Origin: Bacteroidia bacterium
GTDB taxonomy: Bacteria; Bacteroidota; Bacteroidia; B-17B0; Aurantibacillaceae
Length of the DNA stretch: 64,000 bases
Direction: 5' to 3'
Assembly: GCA_018000995.1 (NCBI GenBank)
Contig: JAGNIU010000001.1
Location: 1 to 64,000 of the forward strand
The notes below the pieces were generated by a model. It made no database searches. It was not told the origin of the DNA and saw only the letters and a program-made list of their open reading frames with translations. Shown in pieces: positions 41,260-41,839 of the stretch (within the stretch, counting starts at the first letter, position 1; each line of letters starts with the position of its first letter). The position numbers were made by a program, and so were the translations under genes.

Positions 41260-41355
41260 TAAAGTTCCTAAAAACCTCTCCCCCCTATCTTTTAACAGAA
41301 TCGTTTAGTAAATTTGTGTAAAGCGTCTTCTTTCTGCATCTAAAGAATAGAAGCA

Positions 41356-41836
41356 GTTCGACCCCTCTGGGGTCGGAAGTTTGGTGGAGATGCTTTTTAC
41401 AAACATTTGACCCCTCTGGGGTCATCAAAAAATAAAACAAAATAATTAGCGACCCCGGAAGGGTCAAATGTTAATAGAACAAGAAAACATACAACAGCAA
41501 CACAACCCGACCTCAATTGCGGTCATGAAAAAATAAAACAAAAAGAATATCAAAACGACCCCAAGGGGTCAAATGTTTATAGAACGAGAAAACATACAAC
41601 AGAAACACAACCCGACCTCAATTGCGGTCATGAAAAAATAAAACAAAAAGAATATCAAAACGACCCCAAGGGGTCAAATGTTTATAGAACGAGAAAACAT
41701 ACAACAGAAACACAACCCGACCTCAAGTGGTCATGTAAAATAAAACGACAAAAAGAATATCAAACGACCCTGGAGGGGTCAAATGTTTATAGAACAAGAA
41801 TGCCCTCACAACACCACGACCCCAGAGGGGTCGAAC
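41356..41836. repeat. Array of GACCCC-GGGGTC palindromes with two alternating spacers
   Basis: The 481-bp stretch is bounded by two exact 20-bp inverted repeats: GTTCGACCCCTCTGGGGTCG at 41356-41375 and its complement at 41817-41836. Inside are further palindromes at 41409, 41451, 41557, 41662 and 41766 (consensus GACCCCnnGGGGTC), and weaker GACC...GGTC palindromes at 41509, 41614 and 41719. Between strong palindromes the period is 106, 105 and 104 bp, and the spacers are almost identical copies. It is not CRISPR, since spacers are not unique. There is no credible gene in the 614-bp gap 41226-41839. Confidence 0.9.
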
Positions 41837-41839
41837 TAA

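Follow-up and report, generated by a model that had tools for sequence, protein, structure and literature searches.

A REP/BIME-like hairpin array before a DUF4175-type gene in a Bacteroidia genome and its probable link to Y1 transposases of the subclass 1.2 type

Structure of the array

We analyzed a cluster of short palindromes lying between rng and a DUF4175-type gene in a 64,000-nt stretch of a Bacteroidia bacterium genome (the stretch is called the window, and its genome G000). Some 40 nt before the array stands TAAATTTG, which is retained in the leaders of congeners and matches the Bacteroidota -7 motif TAnnTTTG; a promoter role is presumed (Table 1). The 481-nt array described in the initial annotation was real: its palindromes were located again, seven strong ones at 41359, 41408, 41451, 41557, 41662, 41766 and 41817 and three weak ones at 41508, 41613 and 41718. 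The closing inverted repeats, given there as exact over 20 bp, were perfect and measured 21 nt (hairpins B1' and B5), and the two alternating spacers, given with a period of 104-106 bp, returned a direct-repeat period of 105 nt. Allowing at most two mismatches, GACCCCNNNGGGGTC occurred five times in the window, all inside the array, against 0.16 expected, and this count was reached in 0 of 100 shuffles. A CRISPR, which the same annotation had also dismissed, is excluded, as the spacers are near copies rather than unique.

Table 1. Positions of the hairpins and neighboring features in the window
Feature	Position	Strand	Remarks
Putative promoter of the DUF4175 gene, TAAATTTG	41309..41316	+	Fits the -7 motif; kept in congeners
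Hairpin B1' (CGACCCC-TCT-GGGGTCG)	41355..41375	-	Closes the inverted doublet on its outer side; left arm of the inverted repeat, perfect over 21 nt
Hairpin A1' and tag (on -: TGACCCC-AGA-GGGGTCA AATGTTTGTAAAAA), inverted	41394..41424	-	Model R1 match 41392-41425, E 5.3e-7
Hairpin A2 and tag AATGTTAATAGAA	41451..41479	+	Model R1 match 41449-41482
Weak hairpin b2 (CGACCTCAATTGCGGTCATG), degenerate B	41508..41527	+	Palindrome location
Hairpin A3 and tag	41557..41584	+	Model R1 match 41555-41587
Weak hairpin b3	41613..41632	+	Palindrome location
Hairpin A4 and tag	41662..41689	+	Model R1 match 41660-41692
Weak hairpin b4 (CGACCTCAAGTGGTCATG)	41718..41735	+	Palindrome location
Hairpin A5 and tag	41766..41794	+	First half of the doublet common to G003 and G006 at the same site; model R1
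Hairpin B5 (CGACCCC-AGA-GGGGTCG)+AACT	41817..41837	+	Ends 2 bases 5' of the DUF4175 start codon
Downstream DUF4175-type gene, 1212 aa	41840..45478	+	Putative 5' UTR contains the array; DUF4175 name from the initial annotation

The array consists of five hairpin doublets in the order B'-A', A-b, A-b, A-b, A-B, one inverted and four direct, and B is degenerate (b) in the three inner doublets. Hairpin A carries a 3' tag (AATGTTTATAGAA or close, consensus AT(A/G)TTT(N)TA(G/A)AA) at a fixed distance from its stem, and hairpin B (CGACCCCnnnGGGGTCG) carries none. The two alternating spacers are the linker within the doublet, which follows A and includes the tag, and an AT-rich spacer between doublets. 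The inner units are 96% identical.

Distribution of the repeats within and between genomes

The initial annotation had proposed searching the whole genome and related genomes, and hairpins of the array's type were found elsewhere in both. A covariance model of hairpin A with its tag (R1, 34 positions), which recovers all five A hairpins of the window, gave 19 matches in G000, 25 in G014, 14 in G026 and 11 in G006. The G000 matches include a second array, which lies at C19:307102-307482 between riboflavin-synthase-like and nadD-like genes, and smaller single or paired copies occur on C36, C13, C34, C19 (at 221749) and C69. Both the window and locus L019 show doublets or clusters whose orientation alternates and whose spacers are regular.

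The stems vary with compensatory changes, and the tag is kept. Among 37 sequences, 98.2% of stem cells were paired, changes on both sides of the stem affected 50 cells against 12.6 in shuffles, and the covariation score was 0.648 against 0.251 when shuffled; sliding the register by 1-3 columns left only 26-56% of cells paired. Of 53 regex hits, 44 had the tag at the same distance from the stem. Because the sequences behind alignment A2 (hairpin A plus tag) and model R1 were chosen with the tag regex, and some of them came from the same genomes, tag conservation in A2 is biased and does not count as independent evidence. A regex of GTAGNA/ATAGNA on its own overlooks lineages whose tag differs, for example TTTTTAAAA.

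This variation bears on an alternative that involves no mobility, in which the palindromes are stacked terminators or a tandem series of sites bound by a dimeric protein. Short perfect palindromes would suit either role, and E. coli REPs are reported to bind IHF, gyrase and Pol I (PMC6006769). A duplex-binding protein would conserve sequence, so the free but compensated variation of the stems counts against this alternative, as do the lack of a T-run 3' of the hairpins and the position of the repeats, which differs between species. We regard this explanation as very improbable.

Occupancy of the site before DUF4175 varied among relatives. Exactly one doublet precedes the start codon in G003 and G006 (DUF4175-gene protein 90% identical), and its linker aligns with that of the window's last doublet. 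In G001 and G004 the doublet is missing, and the leader reaches the ATG about a dozen bases or less after the conserved GCATCT; the repeats of G005 and G007 at this position are unrelated. The two genes at the nadD site lie nearly end to end in G001, and G000 and G006 have different hairpin sets there. These occupancy differences lie between species, no transposition within a single species having been seen, and on the left side the limits of the insertions are uncertain by 12-20 nt. The occupancy of the two sites suggests that the array came about by insertion at a variable site and then grew, and that it is not a conserved leader. The mobile unit envisaged in the initial annotation is therefore upheld by copies elsewhere and by congeners that are empty or hold one doublet at the same site, and the contrary outcome it had named, an array identical in all relatives with no copies elsewhere, did not occur. 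Another repeat (GTCATGTCGAGCG.AGTCG / TTCGACTACGCTCGACATGACA; L094, L095, L207, L208) occupies the same start-codon-proximal sites, those of DUF4175 and nadD, in G005, G007 and G003.

A cis-acting structured leader RNA, or a source of small RNA, regulating DUF4175 or the neighboring rng and preserving the repeats for that purpose appears unlikely to us. The array does have the putative promoter on one side and the start codon on the other, and the RNA fold reaches a z-score of -11.3, although whole-array z-scores were not taken as evidence of function because inverted copies in any array give such values. Against this explanation, copies with other stems and other neighbors occur across genomes, the array is absent at this site in congeners, and the strand asymmetry and the linkage to tnpA genes (see below) would be left unexplained. 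Furthermore, an Rfam search returned nine matches at E<=1, mostly to eukaryotic miRNA models and all far under the gathering scores. The array might affect DUF4175 expression.

The inverted ends had also led the initial annotation to a MITE-like element, which in the classical sense would be a single unit of 481 bp, mobilized by a DDE transposase and bounded by terminal inverted repeats of 21 bp. The ends are indeed perfect over 21 nt; however, they are two intact B hairpins of REP type in opposite orientation, not the terminal inverted repeats of one transposon, and such B hairpins are also found alone. The 481-bp array as a whole unit was not found elsewhere, single doublets stand at the orthologous site, and no target duplication was seen when the rng-DUF4175 junction was compared with the empty one in relatives, as that annotation had advised. 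In addition, the genes linked to the repeats encode Y1 rather than DDE transposases. A MITE is accordingly a most unlikely description of the array.

Association of the repeats with Y1 transposase genes

Doublets of the array's architecture, some with the CGACCCC...GGGGTCG stem, flank Y1 transposase genes in related genomes, and hairpins with this stem adjoin Y1 (HUH) tnpA genes in G005, G006, G014 and G022. The gene order is A-linker-B-tnpA-B'-linker-A' in the clearest loci (C53 of G000; L088). The encoded proteins of about 150 aa carry the motifs DH[VIL]H, WQ and YI.NQ..HH, and the invariant columns of protein alignment A1 are D54, H55, H57, W95, Q96, Y115, Q119, H122 and H123. They score above the NCBIfam IS200 cut-off, reach only 27-40 bits with the RAYT model NF047646 (REP_Tyr_transpos; cut-off 80), and have the TnpAs of ISDra2 and IS608 as nearest solved structures. 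On these motifs, the linked transposases are assigned to the TnpA_Y1 subclass 1.2 type.

The TnpAs of G005, G006, G014 and G022 and that of L088 form one branch (support 91/91, tree drawn open). The two subclass 1.2 genes of G000 itself (C53 and C14) are separate from this CGACCCC-flanked branch and carry other stems, with a different tag, TTTTTAAAA, at C53; no GACCCC stem was found beside tnpA in G000. The GACCCC family may thus be an orphan in this genome, or may be moved in trans. A third Y1 gene of G000 (L026:1423-1995) has subclass 2.6 motifs (NHIH, YIHQNP) and lies, flanked by CCGAAGGATTTACAATCCTTCGG-type palindromes, between dinB-like and polymerase-like genes.

The link was examined at 100 loci chosen by protein. 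The window genome and its relatives supplied 20 of them, and a protein profile found the other 80 in GTDB genomes, which belong for the most part to Bacteroidota but also to Verrucomicrobia, Ignavibacteria and further groups. At least two hairpins lay within 400 nt of the gene at 96 of the 100 loci against 15 of 100 for segments 1200-1600 nt away, and hairpin density was 7.84/kb within 300 nt against 1.08/kb at 1500-2000 nt, although this distance control sets largely intergenic flanks against largely coding sequence and part of the contrast could stem from that. In 21 genomes, hairpin density over the 300 nt preceding DUF4175 was 0.32/kb. When hairpins were oriented by their loop purines alone, making a profile without use of the tag, flank information appeared on the 3' side only, at about 0.1-0.7 bits to position 16, against about 0.0-0.05 on the 5' side apart from the stem-adjacent base; the 3' consensus was about GA[AC]AT[AG]TTTATAGAAA, and 280 of 414 loops were GNA. 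By strict regex, no tag was detected at 35 of the 100 loci. A TnpA of at least 200 bits was present in 14 of 17 genomes with model R1 matches and in 5 of 24 without (Fisher p 1.3e-4), a genome-level test that the tag-regex choice of sequences biases. In Flavobacterium foetidum, Flavobacterium sp. J49 and G026, tnpA is accompanied by tandem hairpin arrays whose layout matches that of the window.

Several further observations were made on these genes. The G026 arrays at L200 (C49) and L077 (C99) have a period of about 50 nt; that of L077 lies on both sides of tnpA, and that of L200, being near a contig end, may truly be longer. At L126, L129, L130, L136 and L172, subclass 1.2 tnpA occupies one shared place in several Chryseobacterium, Flavobacterium and Amniculibacterium genomes, which suggests long vertical residence; the ORF just 3' of it begins MKTAYIVKGFR-AVGKAPKG and looks acetyl-CoA acyltransferase-like by eye. 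Genes of the subclass 1.2 type also occurred in MAGs labeled Verrucomicrobia, Acidobacteria, Planctomycetota and Poribacteria (L133, L140, L158, L165, L171, L181, L183, L190), where binning errors are possible; these groups go beyond the Cyanobacteria and Bacteroidetes that the 2018 survey named.

Origin of the array

Taken together, these results lead us, with good confidence, to read the array as a BIME-like cluster whose doublets are non-autonomous elements of REP type, tied to a Y1 transposase of the subclass 1.2 type and formed by insertion and growth. Most likely, judging from the sequence comparisons, a transposase would have inserted a non-autonomous doublet, which was then duplicated in tandem. 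The mobile unit would be the doublet (hairpin A, 3' tag, linker and hairpin B), flanking subclass 1.2-type tnpA genes in some places and scattered without a gene in others. During replication, single-stranded DNA may fold into the purine-triloop hairpin, and TnpA would bind hairpin and tag, the latter as a guide or recognition site, cut with its tyrosine and paste the doublet elsewhere. An ancestor of G000, G003 and G006 would have received one doublet in its DUF4175 leader; in G000 the array would then have grown by tandem duplication of the A-b-spacer unit, together with an inverted doublet, and the cognate transposase gene would have been lost. Slippage or unequal recombination may have driven this growth, as the identity of the inner units suggests.

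The HUH Y1 family recognizes single-stranded DNA. The purine triloop, the one-sided tag and the Y1 linkage favor recognition of a single-strand hairpin over a duplex-binding site, and the one-sided, strand-specific structure appears to fit the former better; for this family, cleavage of REPs has been described (PMC8266576). Of the structured RNA or dimer-binding site suggested by the initial annotation, a possible side effect is what would remain.

Comparison with known systems

Most of what is known of REP elements and their domesticated transposases comes from proteobacteria, where the repeats have a GTAG foot. If the link proposed here is true, it gives a substrate to subclass 1.2, an orphan protein group described as lacking REPs, gives a name to many unexplained intergenic hairpins of Bacteroidota genomes, and permits a test for more than one origin of REP systems from IS200-type ancestors. 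We lean slightly towards a broader proposal, in which TnpA_Y1 subclass 1.2 would be the motor of a separate REP-like class across Bacteroidota, with GNA-triloop hairpins, a 3' recognition or guide tag, an IS200 (class 1) origin independent of the class 2 RAYTs, and orphan arrays left in host leaders after transposase loss.

First, the transposases resemble TnpA_Y1 subclass 1.2, as described by Quentin et al. (2018; PMC6006769), in length, in the three motifs, in occurrence in Bacteroidota and in low copy number. That survey lists the subclass without REPs and, in general, without typical terminal structures, which differs from the flanking hairpins at nearly all of our loci. In the open-licence PMC papers found, no description of such repeats beside subclass 1.2 genes was met, and the repeats are thus linked to a transposase subclass not earlier tied to REPs in that literature. 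Second, IS200/IS605 elements (ISDra2, IS608; TnpA subclass 1.1) share the HUH-Y1 family and the NCBIfam IS200 model; in contrast, the gene here lies between inverted doublets at the loci examined in full, not between one left and one right hairpin, and few gene copies accompany many gene-less doublets. Third, GTAG- and CGTC-tagged repeats are likewise tagged palindromes, and CGTC repeats have been reported in Bacteroidetes among other phyla with no dedicated transposase reported (PMC3733652), but neither GTAG nor CGTC stands at the hairpin foot here.

REP/BIME/REPIN systems (TnpA_REP/RAYT, e.g., the E. coli REPtron) share with the array hairpins that are short and extragenic, doublets of either orientation, clusters with two alternating spacers, dispersed non-autonomous copies, and linkage to a Y1 transposase gene of low copy number with copies on its flanks; this flanking was seen in relatives, and tnpA of G000 itself has no GACCCC stem beside it. 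The differences are that the conserved tag is on the 3' side, about 5-16 nt past the stem core, that the 5' foot carries neither the GT[AG]G of canonical REPs nor any information, that the stem-loops are of 15-19 nt with GNA/ANA triloops, and that the transposase is class 1 (IS200-like, Y...Q..HH) rather than class 2 (Y...NP). Copies are also fewer than the more than 100 per genome usual for REPs (PMC2817692), though the model matches in G000, G014 and G026 still amount to several to many. Lacking GT[AG]G at its foot, the array nevertheless appears REP/BIME-like in its mode of working.
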